Assembly: GCA_913057235.1 (NCBI GenBank) | Contig: CAJXNI010000005.1 | Coordinates: 62,001 to 126,000 of the forward strand | From: an uncultured Bacteroidota bacterium | GTDB lineage: Bacteria; Bacteroidota; Bacteroidia; Flavobacteriales; Schleiferiaceae | Direction: 5' to 3' | Length of the DNA: 64,000 nucleotides | Part shown: one piece after another, positions 39,900 through 47,390 of the stretch | How positions within the stretch are numbered: position 1 is the first letter of the stretch | Layout of the letters: the number at the start of each line of letters is the position of its first letter | Notes under the pieces: generated by a model | The model's database searches: none | Told to the model about the DNA's origin: nothing | The model's input: the letters and a program-made list of their open reading frames with translations, nothing else | Translations under genes and position numbers: made by a program

Positions 39900-41822
39900 G
39901 TGATTAAGAGATTAGGATTTTTGTGGATAGGAGTGCTGACCATTTGGGCGAGTGTAACCTTTGCCAATGCAGATGATCAGGCACGTATGACGGTACATTT
40001 GTTGGATTACATAGCAGTAGATTACGCTATGGCGGTAGATAAAGGCGCGGTAATTAGCGCAGCCGAATACCAGGAAATGCAGGAGTTTGCCAATACCATT
40101 GAGGCCATCACTAAAGATGCCCCAGCTGCGGTTAAATCTGATGTAGAATTACTTAAAAAACTCATTGCCAATAAGGCCCCGCTGGAAAAAGTGAGCAGTG
40201 TGGCCAACAGTATCAAGCAAAAAGTAATTTCTACCTACAATTTAAGGGTGGCCCCTAAACGCTTCCCGTCTTTAGACAACGGTGCGCAGTTATTTGCTTT
40301 GCACTGTGCCTCCTGCCACGGTAAAACCGGAAAGGGTAATGGCATTTTAGCCGAGAGCTTAGAGCCGGCCCCCACCAATTTTCACCAAGAAGATAAGGCC
40401 AATGGACTATCACCTTTTCAGGCTTACAACACCATAAGGCTGGGTGTTGAGGGTACGGGCATGCGTGCCTTTGATGAGCTTAGTGACGATGAAATTTGGG
40501 ACCTGGCTTTTTACGCCATTAGCTTGCCCCAGCGCAGTGAACCGCTACCCCAATTACCTGAGAAAGAAGATCTGCCATTTTCAATAACACTGGACGACTT
40601 AGCCTCTCAAGACAACACAGAATTAAAAGCGGCCTACGCCTTAAATGCTCAACAAGCACAGTTTGTAATTCCGGCTTTAAGGCTTTATCCCAAAGAAACG
40701 GCCGAGCGCAGTCAAGGAGACTACCTAGACAAGGCTATTACTTTGCTTAAAGAATCTAACCAGGCTTATGCCGATGGCAACACCGATGAAGCACGCACCC
40801 TGGCCCTAACTGCCTATTTAGAAGGCGTTGAGCCCATTGAAGCTAAATTAAGAGCCAACAGCGGTGCTTTTGCCTCTGATCTGGAAACTCAGCTGGCCAC
40901 CATGCGCAGCTTAATCGAAAAGGAGGCTCCTGCTTCTGAAGTGAACGCATCGGCCACAGCCAGTATTAAAATGGTGGAAGAAGCCCAAGCCTTAATTGGT
41001 AGCAAAACCTTTAGTGGCTGGTTAGCTTTTCTCCTTTCTTCTTCTATTATTCTCAGAGAGGGCTTAGAAGCCTTTCTGGTAATCCTCACTATTTTAGGCA
41101 TTATACGCGCCCTTAAACTACCCAATGCCGCCAAGTGGGTGCACGGTGGTTGGATGGCCGCCATTGGCAGTGGCTTTTTAATGTGGCTGGCGGCCGGCAA
41201 GCTTTTCAATTTCAGTGGCGCTCAGCGCGAACTCATGGAAGGAATTATTGCCCTTTTTGCCGTGGGCGTACTGCTTTACGTTGGGTTTTGGATGCACAGT
41301 AAATCAGAAGCCGGTAAGTGGCAAGCTTACGTAAAGAATAAAATTCAGGGACTGGCCAGAAAAGAAAATATGCTGGGTTTGGCTTTCTTATCGTTTTTGG
41401 TAGTTTTTCGCGAGGCTTTTGAAAGCGTGCTATTTTTATCGGCTTTAAGCCTGGAGGTAGGCCCGGGACAGCAAATGGCTTTTGGTGGCGGTATTATCTT
41501 TGCCTTTGCAGCCTTGCTCATCATCTCGGTATTGCTGCTCAAATATTCTAAGAAAATACCCATTCCAAAGCTCTTTAAATACTCGGCCATTGTAATATCC
41601 TTTTTAGCCGTAATTCTGGTGGGTAAAGGCGTACATGCCTTACAAGAAGCGGGCACCCTAAGTATTTCTATGCTACCGGTAAATATTAAACTAGACGCCA
41701 TAGGTCTTTACCCTAGTTGGGAAAGTCTATTGGCGCAACTTGGTATTCTGGCGCTGGTGGTAGTGCTTTGGAACGTGGGTAACCGAAGCGTAAAAGTAAG
41801 CAGCCGGCCCGCTAAGGCATAA
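39900..41822 (+). CDS. FTR1 family iron permease fused to cytochrome c domain
   Basis: 640 residues, GTG start, signal peptide about 1-23. A cytochrome c domain has heme motif CASCH (Cys136, Cys139, His140) and a likely axial Met188 (GTGMRAF). A helical spacer follows (about 240-370), then the permease: the REGLE motif at 386-390 and REAFE at 504-508, both with the Glu residues that carry iron in FTR1. Around seven membrane helices are predicted. It probably oxidises and imports ferrous iron across the inner membrane, the heme domain taking the electron; this is inferred from architecture. Confidence 0.9.
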   Translation: MIKRLGFLWIGVLTIWASVTFANADDQARMTVHLLDYIAVDYAMAVDKGAVISAAEYQEMQEFANTIEAITKDAPAAVKSDVELLKKLIANKAPLEKVSSVANSIKQKVISTYNLRVAPKRFPSLDNGAQLFALHCASCHGKTGKGNGILAESLEPAPTNFHQEDKANGLSPFQAYNTIRLGVEGTGMRAFDELSDDEIWDLAFYAISLPQRSEPLPQLPEKEDLPFSITLDDLASQDNTELKAAYALNAQQAQFVIPALRLYPKETAERSQGDYLDKAITLLKESNQAYADGNTDEARTLALTAYLEGVEPIEAKLRANSGAFASDLETQLATMRSLIEKEAPASEVNASATASIKMVEEAQALIGSKTFSGWLAFLLSSSIILREGLEAFLVILTILGIIRALKLPNAAKWVHGGWMAAIGSGFLMWLAAGKLFNFSGAQRELMEGIIALFAVGVLLYVGFWMHSKSEAGKWQAYVKNKIQGLARKENMLGLAFLSFLVVFREAFESVLFLSALSLEVGPGQQMAFGGGIIFAFAALLIISVLLLKYSKKIPIPKLFKYSAIVISFLAVILVGKGVHALQEAGTLSISMLPVNIKLDAIGLYPSWESLLAQLGILALVVVLWNVGNRSVKVSSRPAKA

Positions 41823-41882: not shown

Positions 41883-42659
41883 ATGAATCGGTTCTTTCTT
41901 TTTGCTCTTTTGAGTTTCGCTCTTTGCAGTTTTAGCCCGGGTGACGCTAAAATTACACATCAATATTTGGCCATAAAACCTCGGTTGCGGGCTGACATTC
42001 ATGAAGTCACTAACGCCCAGTACCAATTGTTTTTAAAAAGCCTTTCGGCCGAAAAGCGAAACCTTTTTAAACCCGACAGCAGCGCCTGGCAAAAGGAAAA
42101 GACCTTTGGCTTTACTCAAGCCTTAGCCGATAAGTATCACAGCCATGAGGTTTATGCACGCTACCCAGTGGTAAATATTAGTTATGAAGCCATGGTGGCT
42201 TATTGCAAATGGCTTACCCAAGAGTATCATCTAAAAGATAAACGAGAGTTTGAAAAAGTGGTGTTTCGCCTACCTACAGAACGGGAGTGGTTAGCTCTGG
42301 CTAAACCGCTGCCGGGACATAATTTGCCTTGGTACGGCAACCTAGCTTTTATACCAGTTAAGGGTAAAAATGCCGTGTACTACTGCGCAAACCTTAAAGT
42401 GAAAGATCATACCAACCAGAGCTACAATTATGTTGCAGACGGTAGCTTTTTTACTTGTAAAGTGGGGAGCTATGAAAAAAATGGTCTGGGCTTTTTTGTC
42501 GTAATTGGCAACGTAGCCGAAGTAACCGCTGAGGGCACTATTAAAGGAGGTAGCTGGGATAATTTAGTAGAGGAAAGCACCGTTGATCAAAACCAGCGCT
42601 ACGCTTTACCAGACCCCCGAGTGGGGTTTAGAGTAGTTGTGGAGATTCTAGTTCCCTAA
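41883..42659 (+). CDS. formylglycine-generating-enzyme-like (SUMF1 domain) secreted protein
   Basis: 258 residues with an N-terminal signal peptide. The domain markers are DIHEVTNAQYQLFLKSL near the start, YPVVNISYEAMVAYCKWL, FRLPTEREWLALA, IKGGSWDN and VGFRVV at the end, typical of the FGE-sulfatase/SUMF1 fold. The cysteine pair used by true formylglycine-generating enzymes is not apparent. Bacteroidota use this fold in GldJ/GldK, T9SS lipoproteins; this protein is shorter and has no lipobox Cys, so its role is open. Confidence 0.8.
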   Translation: MNRFFLFALLSFALCSFSPGDAKITHQYLAIKPRLRADIHEVTNAQYQLFLKSLSAEKRNLFKPDSSAWQKEKTFGFTQALADKYHSHEVYARYPVVNISYEAMVAYCKWLTQEYHLKDKREFEKVVFRLPTEREWLALAKPLPGHNLPWYGNLAFIPVKGKNAVYYCANLKVKDHTNQSYNYVADGSFFTCKVGSYEKNGLGFFVVIGNVAEVTAEGTIKGGSWDNLVEESTVDQNQRYALPDPRVGFRVVVEILVP

Positions 42660-42699: not shown

Positions 42700-44649
42700 A
42701 TGCGCTTAGTTTACACCTTAGTTCTAGCCTGCTTGGCATACTTTCTTTCCGCTCAAAATCAAGTGGTTGATTCAAAAATAACCGAGGTAACCGTCTTTAG
42801 CCAGGGTGCCCAAGTAACCCGTACGGTAGAAATTAGTCTCAAAGCGGGTGAGCAAACTTTACTTTTCAATAACGTTGCTCTTAGTGTAGATGCCGAATCA
42901 CTACAATTAACCCAAGTAGATAATGCTGAGTGGTCTTTGCATCAGCTTAAGCATCAAGTGCAGTATTTAAGCCATGATCGCGCGTTTTTAGACAGCCTGG
43001 CATACCTTAACAAGGCACTAAATAAAACCAATAAAGACCTCACCGCCCTTAAAGAACAATACCGAAAAAGCCTGGTGAAAGAGAAAGTGCTTCTGGCCAA
43101 TACCAACTATGAAAAATCTTCTAATCAGGTGAGCACCTTGGAGCAGGGCTTGAACCTGATAGATCAAAAAATGGAGCGTTTCCGCAAAGAGCGCGCTTTG
43201 CTAGATGATCAAATTCATGACCAGGAAAGAAAGCAGCAAGAATTACTGAATGCATTGTTGCTCAAACGCCTGGAACAAAGCAGCCCAAAAGGTCAGATTA
43301 TTGTCAAAATTAGCAGCCCTGTTGCTCAAAAAACCATGCTCAAGCTTACGTATTTTGTAGAAAGTGCGGGTTGGGAACCGGTGTATGATTTGCAAATGAC
43401 CTCCCCGGGCGAACCACTGAAAATTGTATACAAAGCCCAGATTCAGCAAACATCAGGCGAACCGTGGAAAGATGTTAAACTCAGTCTGGGAACCGCTAAG
43501 CCCACACAAGGCCTGGACAGGCCAGAGTTGCGACCCTTTGAAGTTGGCAATCTATCTTACAATACTCGAACCAGAGGGACGAACACCAGACCTCAAAATG
43601 AAATACGGGGAACGATAAGCGGCCTTATCTACAACAGCAGCACCAATCAACCGGCACAACAAGCCACCATCTTGGCCTACAATAAGTATCAGCAGGTAGT
43701 GGGTGCCAGCACTTCAAATGTGGCGGGGCAATTTCAAATTGCCTTAAAGCAACCAGCCCAGAAGCTGCTAGTGATTAGCACGGGCTACCAGCAAAAAGAA
43801 GTCTATCTAAATCCCAATCAGAAATTTTATGAAATAGATTTCAACCCCACCAAAAAAAGCTATCAAACCACTGCAGAAGACATTACCCATATGGCGGTGC
43901 GCGATATCAGTTCTGTAGAATCTAGTGTAAGGGGCGCCCGTTCAGAAGGAACAACGTTCTTTATAAACGGTGTTAAAATAAAAGGCGCAACCAAGGTGCC
44001 TAAAGAGGTATACAACTACGGAGCTTTTGAACGCCCAGCCAGTGGTACCAATTTGAATTTTACCTTAAACAAGCCTTTTAGCCTTTCTTCAAACGGTGAA
44101 AGCCTAAATGTGGTGCTTAAAGCCTTGGAAGTACCGGCCAATTTCCAATACCTGCTAATTCCCAAGAAAAGCAAAGAAAGTTTTCTGGTGGCCGAAATAT
44201 CCGATTACAATCAATTGAATCTACTGGTTGGCAAAAGCAACATTTATGTAAATCAAACCTTTTTAGGAAGTTCAACCCTTGATCCGTTTACCCCCAAAGA
44301 TACCTTGAGTTTAAACATGGGAGTTGACCCCCGCTTACGGGCCCAGAGGACTTTAATTAAGCAAAAAACCAGTAAATCTGCCTTTAGTGGCGATAAGACC
44401 CGTGAGTTTACTTACCAGGTTGAAATTCAAAATACTTTTGATGATAGCATACGCGTGAAACTGATCGACCAGATTCCTATTAGTAAGTCTGAGCCCATTA
44501 CGGTTAAGTTATTGGAAGCTGAAGGCGCTCAATACACCAACGCTACCGGAGAATTAGAATGGAAGCTGCAAATGGCTCCTGGCGAAAAACGCAAACTCAC
44601 ATTCCAGTACGAAATAAAGTACCCTGGTAATGTGCGCATTAACCACTAA
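42700..44649 (+). CDS. MuiA/DUF4139 protein with CarboxypepD-reg and TonB-plug-like insert
   Basis: 649 residues, signal peptide ending FLSAQ. Residues about 25-120 are the N-terminal DUF4140-like domain (ITEVTVFSQGAQVTRT), about 100-190 a coiled coil, and 200-270 start the DUF4139 core (YFVESAGWEPVYDLQM, GEPWKDVKLSLGTAKP). At 301-370 comes a carboxypeptidase-regulatory-like domain (EIRGTISGLIYNSSTNQPAQ). Residues 390-435 (ITHMAVRDISSV, SVRGARSEGTTFFINGVKIK) look like a TonB-receptor plug loop. DUF4139 then resumes to the end. The role is unknown, probably periplasmic or at the surface. Confidence 0.78.
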   Translation: MRLVYTLVLACLAYFLSAQNQVVDSKITEVTVFSQGAQVTRTVEISLKAGEQTLLFNNVALSVDAESLQLTQVDNAEWSLHQLKHQVQYLSHDRAFLDSLAYLNKALNKTNKDLTALKEQYRKSLVKEKVLLANTNYEKSSNQVSTLEQGLNLIDQKMERFRKERALLDDQIHDQERKQQELLNALLLKRLEQSSPKGQIIVKISSPVAQKTMLKLTYFVESAGWEPVYDLQMTSPGEPLKIVYKAQIQQTSGEPWKDVKLSLGTAKPTQGLDRPELRPFEVGNLSYNTRTRGTNTRPQNEIRGTISGLIYNSSTNQPAQQATILAYNKYQQVVGASTSNVAGQFQIALKQPAQKLLVISTGYQQKEVYLNPNQKFYEIDFNPTKKSYQTTAEDITHMAVRDISSVESSVRGARSEGTTFFINGVKIKGATKVPKEVYNYGAFERPASGTNLNFTLNKPFSLSSNGESLNVVLKALEVPANFQYLLIPKKSKESFLVAEISDYNQLNLLVGKSNIYVNQTFLGSSTLDPFTPKDTLSLNMGVDPRLRAQRTLIKQKTSKSAFSGDKTREFTYQVEIQNTFDDSIRVKLIDQIPISKSEPITVKLLEAEGAQYTNATGELEWKLQMAPGEKRKLTFQYEIKYPGNVRINH

Positions 44650-46772: not shown

Positions 46773-47390
46773 TTAGAAGTCTATGGAAATATCCACCGTG
46801 TCATGACCGATGGATTGTAGTGGATATTTAACTATATCATAGTTCCCAAAAGAGTGGTTTTTAAAAACTATTAATTCAATGTTCCTATTTCCAAGCACTC
46901 GTGTATGCAAGATCGTATCGGACCACGCTACAAATCCCCTAACGGAATTAGAACCTGGGGGTGGGTTTATTTCTAATGTATTATAAAGCCCCGTTTTCTT
47001 AATATTCATCCGCACCCATGCATAGGGTATTAAATCTAAGTTTACGGTTTGCTTTTTACCGCGTTTTACGTTGGGGCGTATTACCTCGGTTTGTTCAGTA
47101 ATGAAATAGCCGGGCGCATCGGCTATTACGTAGTATTCTTCTCCGTTGGGCACATCGCCAGCTAGGCTATAATTGCCTTGGGCATCAGCCGTAGTAGAGT
47201 CTACAAAATGGCGGGTTTCTCCAAAGGTGGCGGGGTTCCACCACTCAAAGCGTACTTTGGCAAAAGGCACAGGAGCGCCATTGTTGTATTCATAAACTTG
47301 GCCGCTTATTTGCGTAAAGGACTTATTTTCTTTCTCGCAGGCAGTGGTTAATACTGCTAAAAGAGTTAATAGTAAAAAGGGGGTTTTCAT
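46773..47390 (-). CDS. lipoprotein with carboxypeptidase-regulatory-like domain
   Basis: 205 residues; lipoprotein signal with Cys18 (VLTTACEKE). Residues about 28-125 form a prealbumin-like beta sandwich: ISGQVYEYNNGAPVPFAKVR, DSTTADAQGNYSLAGDVPNG and YYVIADAPGYFI, the pattern of CarboxypepD_reg domains. A second beta-rich part follows. Likely outer-membrane located, of unknown function. The gene lies between the dehydrogenase and a copy of its 3' end, so it sits in an inserted or rearranged segment. Promoter box at 47407. Confidence 0.75.
   Translation of the reverse strand: MKTPFLLLTLLAVLTTACEKENKSFTQISGQVYEYNNGAPVPFAKVRFEWWNPATFGETRHFVDSTTADAQGNYSLAGDVPNGEEYYVIADAPGYFITEQTEVIRPNVKRGKKQTVNLDLIPYAWVRMNIKKTGLYNTLEINPPPGSNSVRGFVAWSDTILHTRVLGNRNIELIVFKNHSFGNYDIVKYPLQSIGHDTVDISIDF

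Follow-up and report, generated by a model that had tools for sequence, protein, structure and literature searches.

Gene Context and Domain Architecture

The stretch analysed here, referred to below as the window, comprises 64,000 nucleotides from an uncultured Bacteroidota bacterium of the Schleiferiaceae, and the closest named relatives of its genome are Owenweeksia-like or Cryomorphaceae MAGs. The gene of interest encodes a MuiA-family protein (Table 1) and is the only DUF4139 gene in the genome, in which 20 Plug and 26 CarbopepD_reg_2 matches were also counted. Immediately upstream lies a gene for an FGE-sulfatase domain protein (41883-42659, +), and two genes upstream a fusion of an FTR1-type iron permease with a cytochrome c domain (39900-41822, +). 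A 205-aa lipoprotein-like protein encoded on the other strand (46773-47390, -) matches CarboxypepD_reg over the cut-off, at 35.1 bits.

Assignment to the MuiA family follows from DUF4140 and DUF4139, both over their Pfam cut-offs, and the NCBIfam model TIGR02231 (MuiA) matched the whole protein with 284.4 bits against a curated cut-off of 112.6. The full-length match, the helical arm and the split beta core are shared with other members; whereas the short-loop members have 30-81 residues at the place in question, the window protein has a loop of 166 residues with a receptor module in it. The putative signal peptide was assigned by reading of the sequence only. A single Pfam DUF4139 match (residues 214-642, E 2.1e-52) bridges the insert, the model itself having 205 positions. 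The original prediction had the core interrupted at about residues 300-440, and the core HMMs together with the bridging match place the split at 283-448.

Pfam recognised the first part of the insert as CarbopepD_reg_2 (residues 306-384, E 1.8e-6, 28.4 bits, under the cut-off of 32.2) and as CarboxypepD_reg (residues 305-375, E 6.9e-6, also under the cut-off), and gave no match to Plug in the window protein at E <= 1. Of the two domains expected in the insert, the regulatory one was thus found by HMM, below threshold, and the plug was not. No barrel family was matched in Pfam at E <= 1, DUF4139 following directly after the insert, and no T9SS C-terminal sorting domain (Por_Secre_tail or similar) was found in Pfam or NCBIfam at E <= 1.

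Table 1. Parts of the MuiA-family protein, with positions in the window, and further barrel-less proteins with the module, with their loci.
Feature	Residues	Position or locus	Strand	Basis or remark
MuiA-family protein	649 aa	42700-44649	+	Signal-peptide-like N-terminus (MRLVYTLVLACLAYFLSAQ), DUF4140, long helical pair, split DUF4139
DUF4140	30-120	42787-43059	+	Pfam E 1.3e-12, over cut-off
DUF4139, first part	214-282	43339-43545	+	Pfam match 214-642; custom core HMM stops at 282
Loop with insert, recurrent capture site	283-448	43546-44043	+	166-aa gap between N-core and C-core HMM matches
NTE (CarboxypepD_reg-like)	303-387	43606-43860	+	pLDDT about 94; PDB 9hfj; Pfam below cut-off
Plug-start remnant	387-436	43858-44007	+	57% to plug of own-genome receptor; alignment and shuffles; pLDDT mostly <50
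Plug core strand pair, RGARSEGTTFFINGVKIKG and preceding V	410-429	43927-43986	+	Alignment to own-genome receptor
DUF4139, second part	449-649	44044-44646	+	Pfam match; C-core HMM
VWA/YfbK proteins with module		L067, L252		
VWA proteins with T9SS tails and module		L247, L248		
Small NTE proteins with T9SS tails		L256, L257		Without plug
Alpha-2-macroglobulin-like protein		L253:45-4424	+	NTE just before A2M domain
Alpha-2-macroglobulin-like protein		L254:754-6735	-	NTE just before A2M domain

The Insert is a Receptor N-Terminal Module

DUF4139 of the window protein is interrupted by the module that TonB-dependent receptors (TBDRs) carry at their N-terminus. Residues 381-436 match the plug of a 1255-aa TBDR of the same genome (L062) with 57% identity and E 2.9e-8; this receptor carries CarboxypepD_reg (E 3.2e-16) and Plug (E 5e-10) according to Pfam. 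Residues 284-448 aligned to its N-terminus with a score of 180, the maximum in 2000 shuffles being 75, and the plug piece alone (386-436) scored 138 against a maximum of 56 in 5000 shuffles. In the stretch 304-435, 56 of 132 aligned positions are identical. Chance likeness of the plug stretch is ruled out by the shuffles and the E-value, and Pfam alone would miss the plug. Besides the NTE fold, the insert has TTAEDIxxMAVRDIxSV and RGARxEGTxxFIxG in common with the N-termini of Bacteroidota TBDRs (SusC, L062). The regulatory domain is followed by VRDISSV and RGARSEGTTFFINGVKIKG, as first noticed, and the fold together with the plug-start alignment confirms that this succession, with no barrel behind it, is the N-terminal order of such receptors.

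In contrast to the TBDRs, the window protein has its module internally and not at the N-terminus, and this copy is degraded, being without barrel, TonB box and most of the plug. The TonB-box stretch LGEVTITYEAPLID of L062 falls mostly on alignment gaps in the insert, 13 residues around AAGVTQDANGN of L062 are absent, and the second half of the L062 plug has no counterpart.

An AlphaFold2 model of the window protein (49 relatives in the alignment, mean pLDDT 84) predicts a continuous DUF4139 core with a long helical pair, and the inserted domain, 301-385, as a separate unit with pLDDT about 94. The plug stretch is of low confidence, with pLDDT <50 at 397-420 and 427-448. In the model of a better-kept relative (L169) the NTE is likewise folded, while the TonB box and nearly the whole plug are of low confidence. 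The best solved match of residues 303-389 was the NTE in 9hfj, from the dextran transporter BT3090, a SusC protein (Z 12.5, rmsd 1.9, 79 of 80 residues), followed by 6ytc, the NTE of BT1762-63 (Z 10.2); the fold also matches 9n2d_E, which belongs to the extended BAM complex of F. johnsoniae (Z 9.0). Foldseek with the whole model returned domain-level matches only (pilins, mu2 adaptin), and a search of solved structures by sequence gave no useful match for the window protein. Structural matches outside residues 303-387 were few, so no clear structural relative was obtained for the DUF4139 core. That the insert is a part of the normal DUF4139 fold is ruled out by the core HMMs and the model. The original prediction could have failed on plug similarity of residues 385-435 or on their belonging to that fold; since the plug likeness is real and the NTE lies outside the fold, it failed on neither.

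Recurrence of the Insert in DUF4139 Proteins

In a sample of the phylum, 134 of 395 genomes had a DUF4139 match. Both halves of the core were located in 193 proteins, of which 177 were left after identical and contained copies had been dropped. The loop is at one place in all 177; it measures 30-81 aa in 86 of them and 108-221 aa in 91, with none between 81 and 108 aa, proportions that come from a non-random set, as long-loop proteins were the starting point of the searches. Own-genome receptors served to build an NTE model, which matched in 83 of the 91 long loops and in none of the 86 short ones, always within the loop. The survey proposed together with the original prediction has shown that the insert is not unique to the window protein, and the same loop is best explained as a site of repeated receptor-module capture in Bacteroidota. 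Pfam found CarbopepD_reg_2 in 34 and Plug in 5 of 50 proteins in one alignment (A3). In several close relatives (L167, L168, L169, L205) two DUF4139 genes stand in tandem, one with the short and one with the long loop; the window has no such tandem. A genome-contig scan with the single window protein, and a viral-contig scan, gave no relatives.

Among the open-licence papers listed for DUF4139, MuiA, plug, regulatory or NTE architectures and carboxypeptidase domains with BAM in F. johnsoniae, none was recognised as dealing with plug or NTE inserts in DUF4139, and those listed for DUF4139 and MuiA yielded no mechanism for DUF4139. Domain databases may list architectures of this kind.

Receptor Motifs and Their Order in the Loops

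Motif expressions (the TonB box as LxEVVVxG-type, and others) were written from receptor signatures after the loops had been read, so the counts below lean towards detection, and shuffles and comparison with other ORFs guard against this only partly. In the long loops the TonB box, LQGRVAG, xRIRG, YVIDG and YGSRxANG all occurred far above shuffle expectation. A TonB box followed the NTE in 52 of 83 NTE loops (shuffle mean 0.54), the remaining 31 having no match to the expression, and none of the 83 had one before the NTE. Short loops without NTE contained a TonB-box match in 10 of 86 cases, a count that none of 1000 shuffles reached (shuffle mean 0.21), and LQGKVAG in 4 (shuffle mean 0.02); xRIRG, in 2 of 86, was within chance. 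Neither TonB box nor LQGKVAG was matched in six short-loop proteins from records with non-Bacteroidota labels (L234, L235, L240, L241, L243, L244). Altogether, 63 TonB boxes were found in 18,325 aa of loops, 14 in 87,038 aa of DUF4139 core, and 8 in 118,770 aa of the 221 other ORFs of the loci, a comparison set which may include receptors.

The order of the pieces is not constant. LQGRVAG stood before the NTE in four loops (L173, L177, L182, L196; shuffle mean 0.01) and IRG in two (L183, L195; 18 of 1000 shuffles as high), and further odd orders were seen in L140 and L232. In L013:1477-3411 (-), VVVTGGTPAQYGDAAG (TGGTPAQYG) precedes IIVRGTRDDANLVFVDGVRVR (RG..FVDG), the reverse of the order in the receptors compared. 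The pieces kept differ by relative as well: L255 and L170 have MAVRDI without RGxR, and L050 and L072 a plug without NTE, whereas L197, from Dyadobacter fermentans, combines NTE, TonB box and a plug scrap.

Origins of the Inserts

The rows for the phylogenetic and conservation analyses were hand-picked, 54 (43 + 11) of the 83 long loops with NTE. In the tree of NTE, TonB-box and plug columns (11 DUF rows among 44), the RGxR-type inserts, that of the window included, formed one clade of 22 rows together with the receptor family of the window and further proteins lacking a barrel, with support of 100/99. As the window insert and those of its family relatives are nested within the clade of a receptor family that their own genomes encode, the transfer of the module into an unrelated secreted protein, as first suggested, holds. 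The SusC-type inserts L075-L077, from three other genomes, grouped among SusC-like receptors. In the tree with 54 DUF rows, the terminal branch of the window insert is among the longest.

A single clade of all inserts was rejected with these columns (AU p 1.8e-43), which rules out that the full module was acquired only once; with NTE and TonB-box columns alone (54 DUF rows among 102, 101 columns) a single clade was not rejected (AU p 0.316). The computation shows at least two separate transfers into the DUF4139 loop, from different receptor subfamilies, a number that rests on a test group named after the first tree had been seen and on only three SusC-type rows with full plug. One original insertion, the content of which other receptors later replaced, may also account for the inserts.

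Inserts are 42-59% identical in amino acids to TBDRs of their own genomes, and their synonymous codons agree at about chance. For the window insert and its receptor, 18 of 55 codons agreed at identical residues (expected 21.7, P 0.89). The relatives gave 44 of 100 (expected 37.4) in G016 and 33 of 75 (expected 30.6) in G003, and a slight excess in G018, 35 of 74 against 26.8 expected (P 0.03). With codon agreement at chance the likeness is kept at the protein level, not by recent copying, and the copying of the module into DUF4139 is old.

The receptor gene itself (L062:1969-5736, -) and its relatives encode TBDRs of 1200-1280 aa, and they are the likely source of the window-family inserts. 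At least one match to the N-terminal module of L062 was found in each of the 31 genomes searched of the window's family.

Conservation and Selection

Outside the window's family, 43 NTE inserts were compared, and their best-conserved stretch of eight residues was the TonB box (0.63 versus 0.35 for the NTE). The resulting ratio of 1.79 (1.66-1.97) is not below that of 28 true TBDRs, 1.52 (1.38-1.68). The 11 rows of the family to which the window belongs gave a ratio of 1.20 (0.94-1.47), an interval which includes 1. Substitution rates were compared within one genus, for three closely related genomes and a fourth, distant one. Between the three close genomes, dN/dS was 0.22-0.26 for the NTE versus 0.04-0.12 for the core, and the plug scraps were relaxed (0.20-0.99); the TonB box, with only 12 codons, gave 0.33, 0.67 and an undefined value. 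Towards the distant genome G212 the TonB box was the least changed part of the loop (pN 0.16-0.23), compared with 0.43 for the NTE and 0.32-0.38 for the plug scrap. The original prediction had supposed a signalling or carrier role; the pattern of conservation points to TonB docking as the likelier function.

Other Barrel-Less Carriers of the Module

Among the 31 genomes of the window's family, the receptor N-terminal module also matched other barrel-less proteins, among them those of Table 1. One of the two alpha-2-macroglobulin-like proteins, L254, additionally matches Plug (E 4.3e-5). The T9SS type A sorting tails on L247, L248, L256 and L257 mean that these proteins are probably exported to the surface, presumably beyond the reach of TonB. 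The genome of the window itself has a 278-aa non-receptor carrier of the NTE, without plug, on contig C15 (L131:1374-2210, +), in which a zinc-finger-like start CHEKW..CQSC is followed by CarbopepD_reg_2 and, further on, EVVVVG. PorE, a CpoB-TolB-CP-Pal fusion, is another envelope protein that is not a receptor but bears a CP/NTE domain of receptor type; it differs from the DUF4139 carriers in the host protein, and the available part of its description mentions no plug piece (PMC12204202).

Discussion

TonB powers receptors. We tentatively read the DUF4139 insert as a captured TonB-docking arm on a protein that is not a receptor, and consider this somewhat short of an even chance. The N-terminal module of TBDRs, consisting of an Ig-like NTE, a TonB box and a plug of varying length, has been put into one DUF4139 loop repeatedly. 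The C-terminal domain of TonB would grasp the flexible TonB box of the loop, the NTE would give specificity, and the DUF4139 protein, periplasmic or on the outer-membrane side, would be a non-transport client or a competitor of TonB. As the TonB box is missing in the window protein, the arm there would have to work by the NTE and the plug strand alone, unless it is decaying.

The docking reading is made by analogy: the VDEVVV box of SusC Bt1763, which directly follows the NTE, is flexible, and growth on levan depends on it (PMC7782687), and the CP domain of PorE has been interpreted as hinting at TonB/TolA coupling (PMC12204202). Counted in favour of docking were the identity of the module, the one loop position with its two length classes and the NTE confined to the long loops, the frequency of the TonB box after the NTE and in short loops, its conservation in the 43 inserts, the low dN/dS of the NTE, the small change of the box towards G212, and the protein-level likeness to own-genome receptors. 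The Pseudomonas aeruginosa muiA gene is placed in an ECF sigma factor regulon and is raised by envelope stress (PMC10418997). Our estimate is no higher because the window protein is without TonB box, the relatives keep different pieces, and the T9SS-tailed carriers would be beyond TonB; the long end branch of the window insert, the ratio of 1.20 in its own family, the lack of a low dN/dS for the few box codons in the close genome pairs and the 31 of 83 NTE loops without a box match were also counted against docking.

The loop could instead be a tolerant one that receives in-frame scraps of receptor genes, which then decay, the module being functionless here. The scrambled order of pieces (LQGRVAG before the NTE in four loops, IRG in two, and L013), the different pieces in different relatives, the relaxed plug scraps, the low confidence of the plug part in both models and the 86 of 177 proteins without long insert all speak for such debris. 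We consider it unlikely, however, since the NTE is under purifying selection and predicted to be folded, the TonB box is conserved beyond the NTE in 43 inserts, and the amino-acid identity to own-genome TBDRs has been kept despite codon agreement at about chance.

It is rather unlikely that the NTE serves as a general adaptor between envelope proteins with a partner other than TonB (e.g., in outer-membrane assembly or secretion), box and plug being passengers. The fold match to the BAM-complex chain would agree with this, as would the CP domain in PorE (PMC12204202), the plug-less NTE modules of small proteins with a T9SS tail (L256, L257) or of other kind (L131) and the NTE loops in which no TonB box was matched; but a general adaptor accounts neither for the TonB box being better conserved than any other stretch of the inserts nor for its presence in 10 of 86 short loops, which have no NTE. 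The high local protein identity to the own-genome receptor and the slight codon excess in G018 would fit a recent conversion of the gene by a receptor gene, or a chimeric assembly, but either is very improbable, as chance-level codon agreement rules out recent conversion in the window and like inserts are present in 91 proteins from many assemblies.

Extended beyond DUF4139, the docking reading would give a Bacteroidota class of non-receptor TonB clients (DUF4139, VWA, alpha-2-macroglobulin and small NTE proteins), which were repeatedly given a TonB-engagement arm, in DUF4139 at one fixed loop. TonB would then pull on, or be titrated by, soluble envelope proteins, and the scrambled pieces would mean that short receptor peptides were selected and not the whole domain. 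We regard this wider proposal as doubtful. If it is true, barrel-less proteins throughout the phylum, with the TonB box as the best-conserved feature of their inserts, would mean that TonB has other clients, and there would be a functional handle on DUF4139. The role of the NTE would become testable outside receptors, in a protein not resembling a transporter. Independently of this, the DUF4139 loop documents how domains have been captured repeatedly at a single position.
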